Shown here: piece after piece, positions 12,696-16,711 of the stretch | Numbering within the stretch: the first letter of the stretch is position 1 | How the letters are laid out: each line of letters opens with the position of its first letter | DNA from: a virus | Length of the DNA stretch: 20,509 bases | Strand: one strand, 5' to 3' | IMG/VR virus record: IMGVR_UViG_3300042987_002457 | Span: 1-20,509 of that record | Program-made: the position numbers and the translations under genes | Notes under the pieces: generated by a model | What the model saw: only the letters and a program-made list of their open reading frames with translations | Database searches by the model: none | What the model was told of the DNA's origin: nothing

Positions 12696-12908
12696 GCTCT
12701 GACCTGTATCAGAGCACCCGAGGCGACGAGCCGAACGGCGAAGTCGCAACCCAACGAGCGCAGCGAGGCGGGAGCGTCCACCCACGCACAGCGAGGGTTG
12801 CCGTCAACCCGACTCCGTCGGGAGCGTCCCTTGACCTTGACCTTCGAAGCCCCGCAGGGAGACAACACACCACACTGCACAGTCCCACACCCACACTACG
12901 AAGGTCAA
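12696..12908 (+). ncRNA. Candidate structured RNA or hairpin cluster
   Basis: Perfect dyads follow each other: GCTCTGA/TCAGAGC (12696-12702, 12709-12715); GCGAC/GTCGC (12723-12727, 12743-12747) enclosing GCCG/CGGC; GGGTTG/CAACCC (12795-12800, 12805-12810); CCCGAC/GTCGGG (12808-12813, 12817-12822); and a wide 10-bp pair TTGACCTTCG/CGAAGGTCAA (12837-12846, 12899-12908). The third and fourth share three C bases, so they exclude one another. An 11-bp direct repeat CGGGAGCGTCC recurs exactly 50 bases apart (12769-12779, 12819-12829). The strand is uncertain because perfect stems fold on either strand; no known RNA family is recognised. Confidence 0.3.
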
Positions 12909-12935
12909 AAAATACGGGAATGAGTAGTGGGAGGT

Positions 12936-12978
12936 GGGGGCTGGGGACCCCCCTTGGGGTGTGGCGGGGGGGTAGGGG
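12936..12978 (+). other. G-quadruplex-type run of G tracts
   Basis: Five tracts of four or more G occur in 43 bases of the plus strand: 12936-12940, 12943-12946, 12956-12959, 12966-12972 and 12975-12978, with short spacers. This meets the usual sequence rule for an intramolecular G-quadruplex. The central CCCCCC run could instead pair with neighbouring G tracts to make a hairpin, so the two structures would compete. Confidence 0.45.
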
Positions 12979-13021
12979 CCGGTGTCGGGCAGGGCCAGGC
13001 TCGAGGTGGCGTACCGAACTG

Positions 13022-13043
13022 GTGTTCGACGAACACATGTACG
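13022..13043. promoter_or_regulatory. Dyad GTGTTCG-A-CGAACAC overlapping a LexA-box-like site
   Basis: Bases 13022-13036 form a perfect 7-bp dyad around one A. Overlapping it, CGAACACATGTACG (13030-13043) matches the actinobacterial SOS box CGAAC-N4-GTTCG except for one base in the right half. The central ACAT equals that of known mycobacterial boxes. A host LexA site in this control region would make a phage transcript respond to DNA damage. One mismatch in the conserved half lowers confidence. Confidence 0.35.
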
Positions 13044-13079
13044 GGTGGGGCAGGGGGGACATCGACGGATTGTTAGGCG

Positions 13080-13114
13080 CACCTAATTCGTCATGACGAA
13101 ATGCGGCCTAGGTG
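13080..13114. promoter_or_regulatory. Nested palindrome, operator- or origin-like
   Basis: TTCGTCATGACGAA (13087-13100) is a perfect 14-bp palindrome. It is enclosed by a second pair, CACCTA (13080-13085) and TAGGTG (13109-13114). Such nested symmetry is typical of sites for dimeric DNA-binding proteins. It lies about 270 bases before the first plus-strand gene. The cognate protein is unknown; winged-helix, ribbon-helix-helix and WhiB genes in the same window are candidates only. Confidence 0.45.
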
Positions 13115-13341
13115 TAGGGCCATAGTCGACGCGGATCGCCAGGCAGACAGCCACACGCGATGAGGGTCTACGGCCATCGAGTAGGGCTATCGGGGGTTTT
13201 GCCCTGGTTCGCCTATCGGCTGGCGTGCTTCCCGACAGGGTCGCTCTGTGATCGTGCGAGGTGGTGCATTCTTCTCGTCGGGTGGGGGTTGCGGCGTGTC
13301 CGATCCCTGTTCGGGGGTTATCTGTTGGCTAGAGTAGTGGT

Positions 13342-13380
13342 GTCGATCCGCTGGGGGTCGGCCTTATTGAAGGGGTGTTC
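13342..13380 (+). promoter_or_regulatory. Structured leader, copy 1 (8-bp hairpin, GCTGG loop, AAGGGG)
   Basis: Arms GTCGATCC (13342-13349) and GGGTCGGC (13355-13362) pair over 8 positions around loop GCTGG; two pairs are G-U in plus-strand RNA. The hairpin is followed by CTTATTG and the AAGGGG ribosome site, and ATG lies 18 bases after the stem. A TAGAGT box (13330-13335, TAnnnT type) would place a transcript start near 13342, but no matching -35 is seen. Copy 2 at 14110 has the same loop, spacing and ribosome site. Confidence 0.65.
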
Positions 13381-13920
13381 ATGTTTGGTTCGTCGTGGTT
13401 CCTTCGACCTGAGATGAAGTTCGTCTGTTGGTCGCCTGAAATCGAGAACGAGGATTCGGCGCACGATTCGGGTTCGGCTATTGAACGGGGTCTGGATCGT
13501 TTGGGGCTGGGTGTTTGGAATCTGTCGCATACGGGGGGTGGTTGCTACGCCTATGACTGTCTTTTGTCTGATGGTTCTTATCTGATGGTTTCTAGTGGTG
13601 ATGTGTTGAGCCGTTACGGTGACTCCGACGATTTTCACGAAGGCTCGGTGACCGTGGGGCTGTATGTCTCCGATGATCGTTGCGATGATTTCGTAATCGT
13701 CCACAATTCGATTAGCCCCGACGGTGATCGTGAATCGGCCATTGTGTCGGCTGTTGGTGAAGTGTTGGTGGCTCTTGGTCTGTCTGCTGATGGCATCGAC
13801 TGGGGCAAGGTGTCGGCGTTTGTTGCTGATGCTTTGTGCGCTTGGTGTGTCGGTGTCGGGCACAAGGTCTACAACGGCAAGGAATACCCGTGCTCTTGTT
13901 CGTTTCGTGGGGTGAAGTGA
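13381..13920 (+). CDS. Unknown acidic protein, first gene of the plus-strand island
   Basis: A 179-residue protein (MFGSSWFLRPEMKFVCWSPE...). ATG 13381 has AAGGGG 6 bases before it, which favours it over a GTG two codons earlier. The middle is rich in Asp, Ser and Gly (CLLSDGSYLMVSSGDVLSRY, GDSDDFHEG, VSDDRCDDFVIVHNSIS). It ends with a Cys-rich stretch (ALCAWCVGVGHKV, YPCSCSF). No family was recognised. It is preceded by the structured leader and its stop overlaps the ATG of the next gene (TGATG). Its role is unknown; position in an accessory island suggests a host-interaction or regulatory function. Confidence 0.6.
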   Translation: MFGSSWFLRPEMKFVCWSPEIENEDSAHDSGSAIERGLDRLGLGVWNLSHTGGGCYAYDCLLSDGSYLMVSSGDVLSRYGDSDDFHEGSVTVGLYVSDDRCDDFVIVHNSISPDGDRESAIVSAVGEVLVALGLSADGIDWGKVSAFVADALCAWCVGVGHKVYNGKEYPCSCSFRGVK

Positions 13921-14051
13921 TGGATACCGACAACGAGGCCACTGAGTGCCAGTGCCACCTTTACGAATGGGTTCATGAGTACGACGATGAGTCGCAATTA
14001 GGTGACTGGTATTGGTGCAGTAACTGCGGAGAGTGCACGCAGGTCGGTTAG
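13920..14051 (+). CDS. 43-residue Cys-rich mini-protein, possible zinc knuckle
   Basis: A small protein MDTDNEATECQCHLYEWVHE, ending YWCSNCGECTQVG. Five Cys and two His occur in 43 residues: CQC near residues 10-12, His13, and CSNCGEC at 33-39, which fits one zinc ribbon or knuckle. It is coupled to the upstream gene (TGATG) with GGGGTG in front. It is shorter than usual gene finders accept but has a plausible start, composition and overlap. Function unknown; nucleic acid or protein binding is inferred. Confidence 0.5.
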   Translation: MDTDNEATECQCHLYEWVHEYDDESQLGDWYWCSNCGECTQVG

Positions 14052-14060
14052 TCGCTAGTG

Positions 14061-14106
14061 GTGTGGCCCCTGGTGGGGGTAGTCCGTGTTCGATTCACGG
14101 GCACAC
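14061..14106 (+). other. tRNA-like element with a canonical T-arm
   Basis: CCGTG-TTCGATT-CACGG (14084-14100) is a perfect T-arm: 5-bp stem closed by G-C, loop fitting TTCRANY. It is preceded by a CCCC/GGGG hairpin (14067-14070, 14075-14078) and the whole is enclosed by GTGTG (14061-14065) and CACAC (14102-14106). A full cloverleaf cannot be built: no 7-bp acceptor stem or D-arm fits. It sits in the 97-base gap between two plus-strand genes, directly before leader copy 2. Confidence 0.45.
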
Positions 14107-14109
14107 GCT

Positions 14110-14148
14110 GTCGATGCGCTGGGCATCGACTTTATGAAAGGGGAAGTA
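14110..14148 (+). promoter_or_regulatory. Structured leader, copy 2
   Basis: Perfect 8-bp arms GTCGATGC (14110-14117) and GCATCGAC (14123-14130) around loop GCTGG, followed by TTTATG and AAAGGGG, with ATG 18 bases after the stem, exactly as in copy 1. Differences between the copies keep pairing (C-G changed to G-C, U-G to U-A or C-G types), which is what selection on RNA structure leaves. The two copies share TCGATSCGCTG. Confidence 0.7.
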
Positions 14149-14739
14149 ATGCAACGGTTCACGCTTCGTGAACTCGCCGACCACCTCAGAGACCTTGCCG
14201 ATGGGCAGGCTGATGAGTTGGGCGAGTTGTTGAGTCAGTCGGCGTTTGCTTTGGATGCGTTCGCCAGCTCGCAGCAAGAAGAAGAAACCGATAGTGGCGC
14301 AATGTTGGCCCATTTAGGGATCAGCATTACGCGGGCTGGGTCGGGTTTTGTTGTGTCTTGGGCCGACTCTGTCGCTAATGAATGGCAGGAATCTTTTAGC
14401 GTGTTTTCGGATGCTGTGGCGTTTGTTGCGCTTGTGGTTCGTTGTCACGAATTGGGCGGGGCTGTTGGGTTTTCGGGTTCGTGGCGTGTGTCGGTTTCTC
14501 GGCTGTTTGTCGATTCAATCGTAGATTCACAACAACAGGAAGAAGACCGAACGATGATGTTTCGGGTCGATGGTGACGGGGAACTATTGGAAGGTGTCGT
14601 CATCGAGAAGTTCGATTCGTCACCTGTTGTGATTGACGGCATCAGTCTCGCTATCGACCCGACCGAGTTGCCTGCGTTCGTTGTTGATTGTGGCGAGCGT
14701 GGGTCTTGGTTGGTTCCGTCGACTTGGGAAGTGAAGTGA
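14149..14739 (+). CDS. Unknown protein, second cluster of the island
   Basis: A 196-residue protein starting MQRFTLRELADHLRDLADGQ. ATG 14149 has GAAAGGGG 7 bases upstream and follows leader copy 2, so earlier in-frame starts inside the leader are rejected. The first 40 residues predict a helical, possibly winged or HTH-like segment (LADHLRDLADGQADELGELL). The middle alternates strands and short helices (GISITRAGSGFVVSWADS, SFSVFSDAVAFVALVVRC), and the end is acidic. No family recognised. Its stop overlaps the next ATG (TGATG). Confidence 0.6.
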   Translation: MQRFTLRELADHLRDLADGQADELGELLSQSAFALDAFASSQQEEETDSGAMLAHLGISITRAGSGFVVSWADSVANEWQESFSVFSDAVAFVALVVRCHELGGAVGFSGSWRVSVSRLFVDSIVDSQQQEEDRTMMFRVDGDGELLEGVVIEKFDSSPVVIDGISLAIDPTELPAFVVDCGERGSWLVPSTWEVK

Positions 14740-15140
14740 TGACGGCCCGAGGTGATGTGTTGGCGTTGCAGTTGGCTCGCCGTGGTGTACCTGTGTCCGA
14801 ACATGTACGGGATGTGTGCGGATTGTTGGCTCGGACTGCGGTCACGATTCAGCGACTCACAGAGGAAGAATGCAACGGGCCGACTTGGGTTGATCGTCCT
14901 TACGCCACTTCTGAACGGTTGGAGAAGTGGGGCGAAGATTTGCAGCGACGGATGGATAGGGCCGAAGTGCGTTTCGGTAAGCAGGTCGCCACACTTCGGG
15001 AGGCGGTCGCTTTCGCTGATCCTGACGGGGTGAATAAGTTCATCGGCGGTTGGCGTGTCTTCGGTGATCCTCGGGGATCGACGGCTGACATCATGGTTAC
15101 CCGTGGTGATCGTGACGAATGGGTGGCGGTGATCGAATGA
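14739..15140 (+). CDS. Unknown conserved-looking protein
   Basis: A 133-residue protein, MTARGDVLALQLARRGVPVSE. It shows helix-rich sequence with HVRDVCGLLARTAVTIQRLTEEECNG, then ERLEKWGEDLQRRMDRAEVRF, a charged helix, and a beta-rich end DPRGSTADIMVTRGDRDEWVAV. The composition and segment order resemble small proteins often found in actinobacterial phage genomes, but I cannot name the family. The start overlaps the preceding stop (TGATG) and its stop overlaps the following membrane gene (ATGA). Confidence 0.65.
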   Translation: MTARGDVLALQLARRGVPVSEHVRDVCGLLARTAVTIQRLTEEECNGPTWVDRPYATSERLEKWGEDLQRRMDRAEVRFGKQVATLREAVAFADPDGVNKFIGGWRVFGDPRGSTADIMVTRGDRDEWVAVIE

Positions 15141-15271
15141 TCGGCGCACCGTGTCCCGATGATTTCCTAATGACCTGTTCGACTTCGGGCGGTACTTGGT
15201 GGGCACTTGTGCCCATCGTCGGCCTGGTCGTTGTCGCTTTGGTTGTTCATCGAGGCGGTCGGCGTGGTTGA
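15137..15271 (+). CDS. 44-residue membrane peptide
   Basis: A short gene, MIGAPCPDDFLMTCSTSGGT then a hydrophobic stretch WWALVPIVGLVVVALVV (residues 21-37), ending HRGGRRG. This is one membrane-spanning helix with a basic tail, so N-out, C-in. The ATG overlaps the upstream stop (ATGA). It is too short for many gene finders, but the overlap, composition and position in a tight operon support it. Role unknown; superinfection exclusion is a common job for such peptides, but only a guess here. Confidence 0.55.
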   Translation: MIGAPCPDDFLMTCSTSGGTWWALVPIVGLVVVALVVHRGGRRG

Positions 15272-15560
15272 TGTGTACCGTCTTCCTGCTTGTTCTGGTG
15301 GGGACGCGAACCATCGGCACGGGTCGGGCTGTCTTCCGATCATCGTTCGGCTGTTGCCTGCTCCCCCTTCGGGTTGGCGTTGGGCACATGGTCGAAGCGG
15401 TGCAGGTTGGGGGTTTTGGGTGGAGCGGATCGGGGGGGCTGGCAGTCGGTGGGCTGTGATCGGTCTACCGAACGCCGACACCTTGGCCGAACTGGTCGCC
15501 ATCGTTGAAGCGTTCGCCTCGGGGTATCGGGTGGGGGTGATCGACGGGCCGAACCTCTGA
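15264..15560 (+). CDS. Unknown protein, last gene of the island operon
   Basis: A 98-residue protein starting at GTG 15264, which has GAGG about 9 bases upstream and overlaps the membrane gene by 8 bases. The sequence VDVYRLPACSGGDANHRHG, then RWAHGRSGAGWGFWVERIGG and a C-terminal helix ADTLAELVAIVEAFASGYRV. The last part reads as a real folded segment, the first as loop-rich. No family recognised. It ends 15 bases before the terminator stem, so it closes the transcript. An alternative frame from ATG 15271 lacks a sensible protein. Confidence 0.5.
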   Translation: MVDVYRLPACSGGDANHRHGSGCLPIIVRLLPAPPSGWRWAHGRSGAGWGFWVERIGGAGSRWAVIGLPNADTLAELVAIVEAFASGYRVGVIDGPNL

Positions 15561-15575
15561 CGGTCGACGGCATCG

Positions 15576-15626
15576 ACCACCATCGAACATCTGTTCGTCG
15601 AACGGGTGTTCGGTGGTGGTCTTTTT
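15576..15626 (+). terminator. Intrinsic terminator of the plus-strand island
   Basis: Arms ACCACCATCGAACA (15576-15589) and TGTTCGGTGGTGGT (15607-15620) pair over 14 positions with one U-G pair. The loop itself folds (CTGTTC/GAACGG around GTC), giving one long hairpin. CTTTTT follows at once (15621-15626). This is a textbook Rho-independent terminator reading rightward and isolates the island operon from the recombinase-like gene. Confidence 0.85.
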
Positions 15627-15698: not shown

Positions 15699-15743
15699 TT
15701 TGGCGTGCGATTCGACCGAAAAATTTGGCGTGCGATTCGACCG
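15699..15743. repeat. Twin 20-bp direct repeats before the recombinase-like gene
   Basis: TTTGGCGTGCGATTCGACCG occurs twice without mismatch, at 15699-15718 and 15724-15743, with a 25-bp period and AAAAA between. They end 48 bases before the ATG. Exact direct repeats at about two and a half helical turns look like binding sites for a protein: arm-type recombinase sites, an operator, or short iterons. Confidence 0.8.
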
Positions 15744-15790: not shown

Positions 15791-16711
15791 ATGGCGACTG
15801 TAAGGTCCGTGACGGCACGTTTCTTGGGTTCTCAACCCTCTGTCCATACTCGGCGTCGCTACAAGAAAGACATTGTCACATGGCAACGGTGGTGCCACTC
15901 TCATGGCGTGCATGCGCTCGACGGGTCGGCGTTGAACGCTCAGCTTTTCTCGGAGTGGCTCGAGATGCAGTACACGTCGTCGTCGGTGCTGTCGAGGTAT
16001 TCGGGGGTGACGCGCTGGTTTGATGCGTTGTTAGCCGAGGGTGTCATCAAAGGGCACGGGTTCCGCAATGTGAAGTTGCCGAAGCGGGTGCGATCCATGT
16101 CTCGGGTCGTGATCCCGACGGAGTCGGAGTTGGGTTTGCTGATGGATGCGGCGGCGAAGAAGGGGCCGCGTTGGGAGTGGGTCGCCGGGATGGTGGCCTA
16201 TGGCGGGCTGGATGTGGCCGAGGCGATGCGAGTTCGGTCGACGGACATTCGTACTTGGGAGGGGCGTACGCTTGTGAAGGTGGTGTCGCGGCGTGGAAAT
16301 CGGCGCGAGGTGCCGGTCGATGGGCGTCTCGAGGTTGTGACGTTGGGGTTGGCGGCTGTGTTTGCTCCGACTTCACCGATGGGGCCGTCGCTGACTGGGA
16401 AGTATGTGGCGGAGGCGTTGGGGGTGTTGGCTCGAGAAGCGTGTGGCCGTCCAATCACGGTGCAAGACCTACGCCGCTATGCGGTGAAACGGCAGGCGGA
16501 GCGCGGTGTCCCGATTCCGGTGATCGCCAAGTGGCTGGGCCATACGACCGACCTGTGGGTCCGTCAGACTTTAGGGATGCTGAATCCGGTGGCCGAGGTC
16601 AGTCAGGCTGATGTTGTGGAAATGATTCTCGTCGAGCCTGATGGCGGGCGGTTTGGCTCCGGCTCCGCGCCAGATTCGCTTCTAGATGGTGTTCAGCCGC
16701 AATCCGCCTGA
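15791..16711 (+). CDS. Tyrosine-recombinase-like protein with degenerate active site
   Basis: A 306-residue protein with the two domains of phage integrases. Residues about 15-100 are the SAM-like core-binding domain (VHTRRRYKKDIVTWQRWC, SRYSGVTRWFDALLAEGVI). Residues about 108-275 follow the catalytic fold, but compared with XerD: Arg I (TGLR) is D141 in GGLDVAEAM; the Lys position has RRGNRR; the His of HxLR is Q225 (QDLRR) while R228 is kept; H251 in LGH is kept; and the Tyr position (H+9/H+10) holds T260-L261. Four of six catalytic sites are thus changed, and strand transfer is not expected. The frame is open throughout, with no sign of decay. A retained DNA-binding role is inferred. Its 3' end overlaps the opposite RHH gene by 113 bases. 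Confidence 0.8.
   Translation: MATVRSVTARFLGSQPSVHTRRRYKKDIVTWQRWCHSHGVHALDGSALNAQLFSEWLEMQYTSSSVLSRYSGVTRWFDALLAEGVIKGHGFRNVKLPKRVRSMSRVVIPTESELGLLMDAAAKKGPRWEWVAGMVAYGGLDVAEAMRVRSTDIRTWEGRTLVKVVSRRGNRREVPVDGRLEVVTLGLAAVFAPTSPMGPSLTGKYVAEALGVLAREACGRPITVQDLRRYAVKRQAERGVPIPVIAKWLGHTTDLWVRQTLGMLNPVAEVSQADVVEMILVEPDGGRFGSGSAPDSLLDGVQPQSA

Follow-up and report, generated by a model that had tools for sequence, protein, structure and literature searches.

The question raised by this locus is why two hairpins with the same loop stand at the same distance from the start codons of two rightward genes of a virus. The window (the whole stretch of DNA that was analysed) is an entire IMG/VR record of 20,509 bp. 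Its leftward half contains genes for the tail, the capsid, a P22-like portal, TerL and HNH, and positions 15791–16711 encode a tyrosine integrase. The genes searched in the rightward cluster (13381–15557) show no Pfam or PHROG match. These include gene 1 (13381–13920, 179 aa), gene 3 (14149–14739, 196 aa) and gene 4 (14739–15140, 133 aa; its start overlaps the gene 3 stop), all on the + strand. Gene 2 (13920–14051, + strand) encodes a Cys-rich sequence of 43 aa. Direct protein searches yielded no relatives of gene 1 and one relative of gene 3, and a search of species genomes for a host yielded one contig in a planctomycete MAG, which is probably misbinned.

The rightward cluster is closed by a very long terminator-like hairpin (positions 15575–15621, at least 20 pairs, then TTTTT). 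A perfect 19-bp direct repeat, TTTGGCGTGCGATTCGACC, is found upstream of the integrase at positions 15699–15717 and 15724–15742; L095 and L052 have analogous repeats of another sequence at this site. They may be arm sites for the integrase or an operator. A conserved G-rich stretch (12925–12975) follows the HNH/terminase genes. The relatives L041 and L042 both end precisely at position 12959 of the window, and other relatives end close by, which suggests a cos site or physical genome end. On the + strand of the leftward operon, hairpins of the type TACCACA-(G/A)GCG-TGTGGTA occur in L046 (at ~789) and L095 (at ~8888), and L049 (at ~1455) has the version AATACAC-GACCG-GTGTGTT. These are located 23–26 nt ahead of the ATG of a small gene before HNH/TerL, with GCGAAAGGGG.

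Hairpin copy 1 (positions 13342–13362, + strand) has the sequence GTCGATCC-GCTGG-GGGTCGGC, with an 8-bp stem that includes two G-U pairs, and copy 2 (14110–14130, + strand) is GTCGATGC-GCTGG-GCATCGAC, with 8 perfect base pairs. Each is followed by 18 nt that contain (G/A)AAGGGG, and then by an ATG at 13381 or 14149; the ribosome sites, as read from the sequence, are GAAGGGGT for gene 1 (13369–13376, + strand) and AAAGGG(G) for gene 3 (14137–14142, + strand). The initial annotation had described these positions, stems, loop, spacing and ribosome site, as well as the perfect pairing of copy 2 and the two G-U pairs of copy 1, and all are present in the sequence as described. When up to three mismatches are allowed, the hairpin pattern has three matches in the window compared with 0.16 expected from shuffles. 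The third is copy 2 read on the opposite strand, and the two hairpins are far beyond chance.

Between copies 1 and 2, one pair has changed in a truly compensatory way (C-G to G-C) and two others are U-G/U-A changes, and the two window copies by themselves are thus thin evidence for selection on pairing. In the close relative L003 both hairpins are kept, with one further U-A to U-G change. A DNA operator dyad was considered as well and is less likely, because where the window and L003 depart from the dyad they have G-U, not A-C.

The exact hairpin pattern gave mostly unrelated GC-rich matches in viral contigs, and scans restricted to the GCTGG loop missed the family to which copy 2 belongs. It was revealed when the loop was freed and a Shine-Dalgarno (SD) sequence and ATG were required. 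Inspection of the DNA upstream of every hairpin, SD and ATG in the phages found by their terminase displays the same series of elements repeatedly: an acceptor-like stem, a small D-arm-like hairpin, a T-arm, the acceptor 3′ strand, R-C-U, a hairpin, AAGGGG and ATG. The initial annotation had missed the corresponding structure in the window, which abuts copy 2 without a gap.

This tRNA-like structure (TLS) is 49 nt long (positions 14061–14109, + strand) and is identified by its match to a covariance model, by covariation and by a structural scan that ignores the hairpin. It consists of a 6-bp acceptor-like stem (14061–14066 with 14101–14106) that has one G-G mismatch in the window, a D-like hairpin (14067–14078), a linker (14079–14083), a T-arm (14084–14100) and the tail GCT (R-C-U; 14107–14109). 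The T-arm loop, TTCGATT (14089–14095), is a canonical T-loop (UUCGAUU). A CCCC-TGGT-GGGG hairpin and a 5-bp stem around TTCGATT are common to the window, L003 and L095 just upstream of copy 2, with compensatory differences. The anticodon arm is absent. The shape is that of the tRNA elbow, with acceptor and T-arm but no decoding arm. In most copies the T-loop fits TTCRANN. The acceptor stem directly adjoins the T-stem and both covary, as in an elbow mimic. A GG that might contact the T-loop is present in the D-like loop of most copies and absent in L082, L090 and L089.

The TLS is not a tRNA gene in the sense of a cloverleaf with an anticodon arm that tRNA models find. ARAGORN shows no tRNA in the window, and across 14 loci it called one copy (in L074, a spurious-looking tRNA-His). 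Rfam gave no match at the gathering threshold to the window or to the units of its relatives. At E-values up to 5, positions 12800–14300 gave only a chance match, and nothing that places the TLS in the yjdF family.

A 68-position covariance model (R2), built from 12 seeds to cover the whole unit, matches the window at positions 14061–14130 with 74 bits and E-value = 7e-13, the window being one of the seeds. The initial annotation had proposed a search of related phages with a covariance model of the two hairpin copies; the search with R2 recovered copies outside the seed: two each in L074 and L147, and one each in L155, L157 and L060 (E-values 5e-7 to 3e-3). Near-copies are present in L078, L091 and L152, and further copies outside the seed in L178, L179/L181 (two each) and L168. 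At least 20 distinct copies are found in related phages, and unrelated viral loci gave nothing better than E-value = 0.3.

When 20 distinct units are fitted to the R2 model, 98.3% of cells are paired and 20 of 22 pairs have changed on both sides; none of 500 shuffles reaches this covariation. A sequence-only MAFFT alignment of 12 copies gives 96.9% paired cells and 17 of 22 pairs changed on both sides. Selection on RNA structure, as first proposed from the two hairpins, now has strong support: all 8 hairpin pairs change on both sides among the 20 sequences, and the TLS helices covary as strongly as the hairpin.

The order of the unit is an upstream stop codon, 7–9 nt, TLS, hairpin, AAGGGG and AUG. 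The structural scan detected 20 TLS in 2.28 Mb (both strands), and 19 of them are followed by a hairpin, which starts 0 nt after the TLS tail (background rate 0.9–3%). In 19 of 20 the TLS starts 7–9 nt after the upstream stop codon, and in 19 of 20 the start codon is 17–27 nt after the hairpin; distances to the AUG are longer in L095, both in its first-gene leader and in its TLS unit. The R-C-U tail is present in 20 of 20 by construction, because the scan demanded R-C-T. In the window the stop codon of gene 2 is 9 nt upstream of the TLS and copy 2 begins 0 nt after its tail. Among complete or long genomes, the number of copies in the cos-proximal operon ranges from zero to two. Several genomes have two copies between different genes, always in the sense orientation, and several relatives with the same integrase or terminase have no detectable TLS. 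The siting between genes, with an SD and AUG of their own downstream, is the position that would be expected of a punctuation mark.

Copy 1 has a different setting. A weak R2 match at positions 13299–13362 (E-value = 0.97) covers the hairpin only, and no TLS is present. A -10-like hexamer, TAGAGT (13330–13335, + strand), also missed in the initial annotation, is presumed to belong to the promoter of the first rightward gene. Copy 1 starts 7 nt after it, so that the predicted +1 (13342) is the first base of the hairpin, which would form the 5′ terminus of the first mRNA. L003 has TAGTGT at this position. No good -35 sequence is found before copy 1 in the window, and a consensus scanner calls no promoter there. 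Of 11 phages, 8 have a first-gene leader whose hairpin starts between about -2 and +3 relative to the predicted +1; some of these predicted promoters are weak. Leaders like that of the window, with differing hairpin sequences, are present in L003, L095, L052, L072, L077, L091 and L074. In L090 the hairpin is at -4 from the top-scoring promoter, and L082 and L089 show no clear hairpin. First-gene leaders of L072, L077, L082, L089, L090 and L091 also contain tandem hairpins (e.g. GGTGAGTCCGTGCGGGCTCGCC and CCGCTTCGGCGG) directly after a TTGACT/TAGAAT-type promoter.

The proposal that one element has been duplicated thus needs revision. Hairpin and spacing are indeed found in both copies, but copy 1 is a promoter-proximal hairpin without a TLS, whereas copy 2 stands between genes and forms the 3′ half of a unit of TLS and hairpin. 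Because the copy 1 hairpin begins exactly at the predicted transcription start, the two leader classes would have the same outcome, an mRNA that begins with a hairpin, produced by transcription start at copy 1 and by a cut after the TLS at copy 2.

Such a cut is the reading that is favoured here with moderate confidence: the TLS would act as tRNA-style punctuation, RNase Z being the probable enzyme that cuts after its discriminator base, and the new 5′ end would be protected by the hairpin. Genes 1–2 and genes 3–4 would be read as one transcript, in which the TLS would fold into the acceptor/T-arm/elbow part of a tRNA and be recognised by the host tRNA-processing machinery. RNase Z would cut just after the discriminator base (R|CU); a cut by RNase P at the 5′ side of the TLS may also occur. 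The upstream RNA would gain a tRNA-like 3′ end to which CCA can be added. The downstream mRNA would start with CU, followed at once by the 8-bp hairpin, the ribosome site and AUG. A hairpin at the 5′ end slows 5′-dependent decay of bacterial mRNA, and one located within 2–3 nt of the new end may shield the message in this way. Copy 1 would give the same kind of 5′ end by transcription start at the hairpin.

RNase Z recognises the tRNA elbow (PMC4810234) and cleaves CCA-less tRNA precursors after the discriminator (PMC10100781). A U located no more than 2 nt past the discriminator stimulates the Bacillus subtilis enzyme ~200-fold on CCA-less precursors (PMC10100781). The R-C-U tail places a U exactly two nt past the presumed discriminator, which fits this uracil rule. 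The TLS departs from normal RNase Z substrates in having no anticodon arm and a 6-bp acceptor. This counts against the punctuation reading, as do the G-G mismatch in the acceptor of the window, the longer distances to the AUG in L095, the relatives with no detectable TLS and the tails of some cluster A mycobacteriophages, which are ACC(A) or ACA(A).

A wider search with a DNA pattern (T-loop, RCT and AAGGGG at set distances) found the unit in L168 and L179/L181, which are records without a match to the terminase of the window. Unexpectedly, it also matched the cultured cluster A mycobacteriophages D29 and SWU1. Here the TLS is a larger cloverleaf (D29, NC_001900.2, 47,978–48,084, minus strand; SWU1, JF946695.1, 51,311–51,405, minus strand), with 63–75 nt inside and an enlarged D-arm; L189 and L190 have a cloverleaf TLS of this kind before gene 89. 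The acceptor is GGGTAG/CTACCC, or GGGTGG/CCACCC in Mulciber, and the T-stem covaries (CCAGG, TCGGG, TGCGG, CGCGG, TGGGG). Most of these phages have the tail ACU, but Miko has ACC(A), and MissWhite, Fameo and Echild have ACA(A). In SWU1 the TLS is followed by the hairpin GCCTGAGC-TTTGGT-GCTCAGGC, AAAGGGG and ATG. The likeness to the TLS of the window is one of structure, and common descent is not claimed.

L5, D29 and StarStuff produce an extremely abundant and stable Pleft RNA of ~500 nt, which is further processed (Dedrick et al., PMC5712189). Its 3′ end is at L5 positions 51,140–51,190, just before gene 89 and without a terminator, and reads downstream of it are reduced by >90% (PMC5712189). 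Dedrick et al. left unexplained how this end is defined, and report no tRNA-like structure (PMC5712189). The SWU1 RNA-seq paper does not mention the Pleft RNA. SWU1 coordinates can be converted to those of L5 by an offset of 179, obtained both from the gene 89 start (51,261 versus the probe B edge at 51,082) and from the predicted transcription start (51,851 versus the mapped 51,672). The SWU1 TLS tail (51,311) then corresponds to L5 ~51,132, beside the published 3′ region and at the edge of probe A (51,133). By this coordinate argument, which is not a measurement, the cluster A TLS appears to coincide with the 3′ end of the Pleft RNA.

In the main rival explanation the TLS acts in cis to enhance or switch translation, and its tRNA-like fold contacts the ribosome and stays uncut, as proposed for the yjdF riboswitch. 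The TLS is directly upstream of the hairpin, SD and AUG, yjdF is indeed folded like a tRNA, and in vitro translation increased 2- to 6.3-fold with tRNA leaders in cis (PMC9142559). This leaves unexplained the 7–9 nt distance from the stop codon, the R-C-U tail and the hairpin inserted between TLS and SD. In cluster A the TLS appears to coincide with the point at which an abundant RNA ends and downstream reads drop by >90% (PMC5712189), which also argues against this rival, and an unsystematic look showed no alternative pairing between T-loop and SD. It is considered unlikely.

The same drop in L5/D29 reads at the place of the TLS (PMC5712189) could be expected if TLS and hairpin set the level of downstream genes by terminating or attenuating transcription, or by antitermination (put/nut-like). 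The terminator scan found none at positions 14061–14130 and no U-tract follows the hairpin, as an intrinsic terminator would require; a T-loop and tRNA geometry would also be unnecessary. This explanation is improbable.

The initial annotation had suggested that the hairpins control translation of both clusters together or are recognised by a phage protein. In this case they would be operator (boxB-like) hairpins to which a phage or host protein binds, with the TLS incidental. The shared GCTGG loop and spacing of the two window copies agree with it, as does the retention of the hairpin in L003, where the gene that follows copy 1 has diverged strongly (42% identity over 80 aa). GCTGG occurs, however, only in the window and its nearest relative and, in L095, in the leader of the first gene. 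The other loops are AATGG, AACGG, ATAGG, ATCGG, GTTGG, ATGGT, ACTCA, AACAC, CACCC and AATTCG, so the conserved loop of a phage boxB or coat-type operator is lacking. Free divergence of both loop and stem in homologues had been named as evidence against the first proposal; the loops do vary freely, but the stems stay paired. Such differences from one relative to the next disfavour a loop that binds a protein, and the equally strong covariation of the TLS helices also speaks against this explanation. It is very improbable; control of translation may occur, but punctuation by the TLS is better supported.

A tRNA gene remnant or an integrase attachment site matching a host tRNA gene, suggested by the resemblance of the T-arm to a tRNA 3′ end and by the tyrosine integrase 1.7 kb downstream, is rejected as scarcely credible because of the compensatory changes on both sides of the helices and the multiple copies per genome, sense-oriented between different genes, and also lacks support from an anticodon arm, from ARAGORN beyond the L074 copy or from Rfam.

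Returning to tRNA-style punctuation, a broader proposal can be made, tentatively. In phages of Actinobacteria an anticodon-less tRNA mimic and a 5′-capping hairpin may form a portable cassette, which makes host tRNA-maturation enzymes cut polycistronic RNA, so that upstream 3′ ends are tRNA-like and protected and downstream 5′ ends are protected by a hairpin; the 3′ end and stability of the cluster A Pleft RNA may arise by the same principle. If true, tRNA punctuation would extend to phage mRNAs through a new family of structured RNA that Rfam lacks, and it would be explained how model mycobacteriophages form the 3′ end of an RNA that is abundant, toxic and stable. M. smegmatis infected with D29 or L5 would permit a direct test of the punctuation model. 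The literature searched, with most subscription journals outside it, contains no description of a TLS-hairpin element in phage mRNAs. What is already known is tRNA punctuation in mitochondria and viral tRNA-like elements with hairpins, the TMERs of murine gammaherpesvirus 68 (MHV68).

In mitochondrial punctuation by RNase P and RNase Z, as proposed here, a tRNA-shaped RNA between genes sets the ends of the flanking mRNAs. The phage TLS differs in being no functional tRNA, without an anticodon arm, and in being followed by a dedicated hairpin, SD and AUG; its cleavage is a prediction. The MHV68 TMER RNAs also have a viral tRNA-like element directly before hairpins and are processed using tRNase Z (PMC4838037). 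Their hairpins are pre-miRNAs, whereas in the phage unit one hairpin leads an mRNA, and no homology is claimed. The yjdF riboswitch (PMC9142559) likewise places a tRNA-like fold before an SD, with a contact between D-loop and T-loop that may also form in the phage TLS, but it is a four-way junction with an aptamer and not a processing site. tmRNA and armless tRNAs have the acceptor, T-arm and D-loop part without an anticodon arm; unlike these, the phage TLS has no tag ORF, mostly lacks CCA and is embedded between genes. The cluster A Pleft RNA of L5, D29 and StarStuff appears to have a cloverleaf TLS with a T-arm where its 3′ end was mapped; in several phages a hairpin, AAGGGG and the gene 89 AUG come next. 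It differs from the window in that its TLS is larger and lies within a long non-coding leader.
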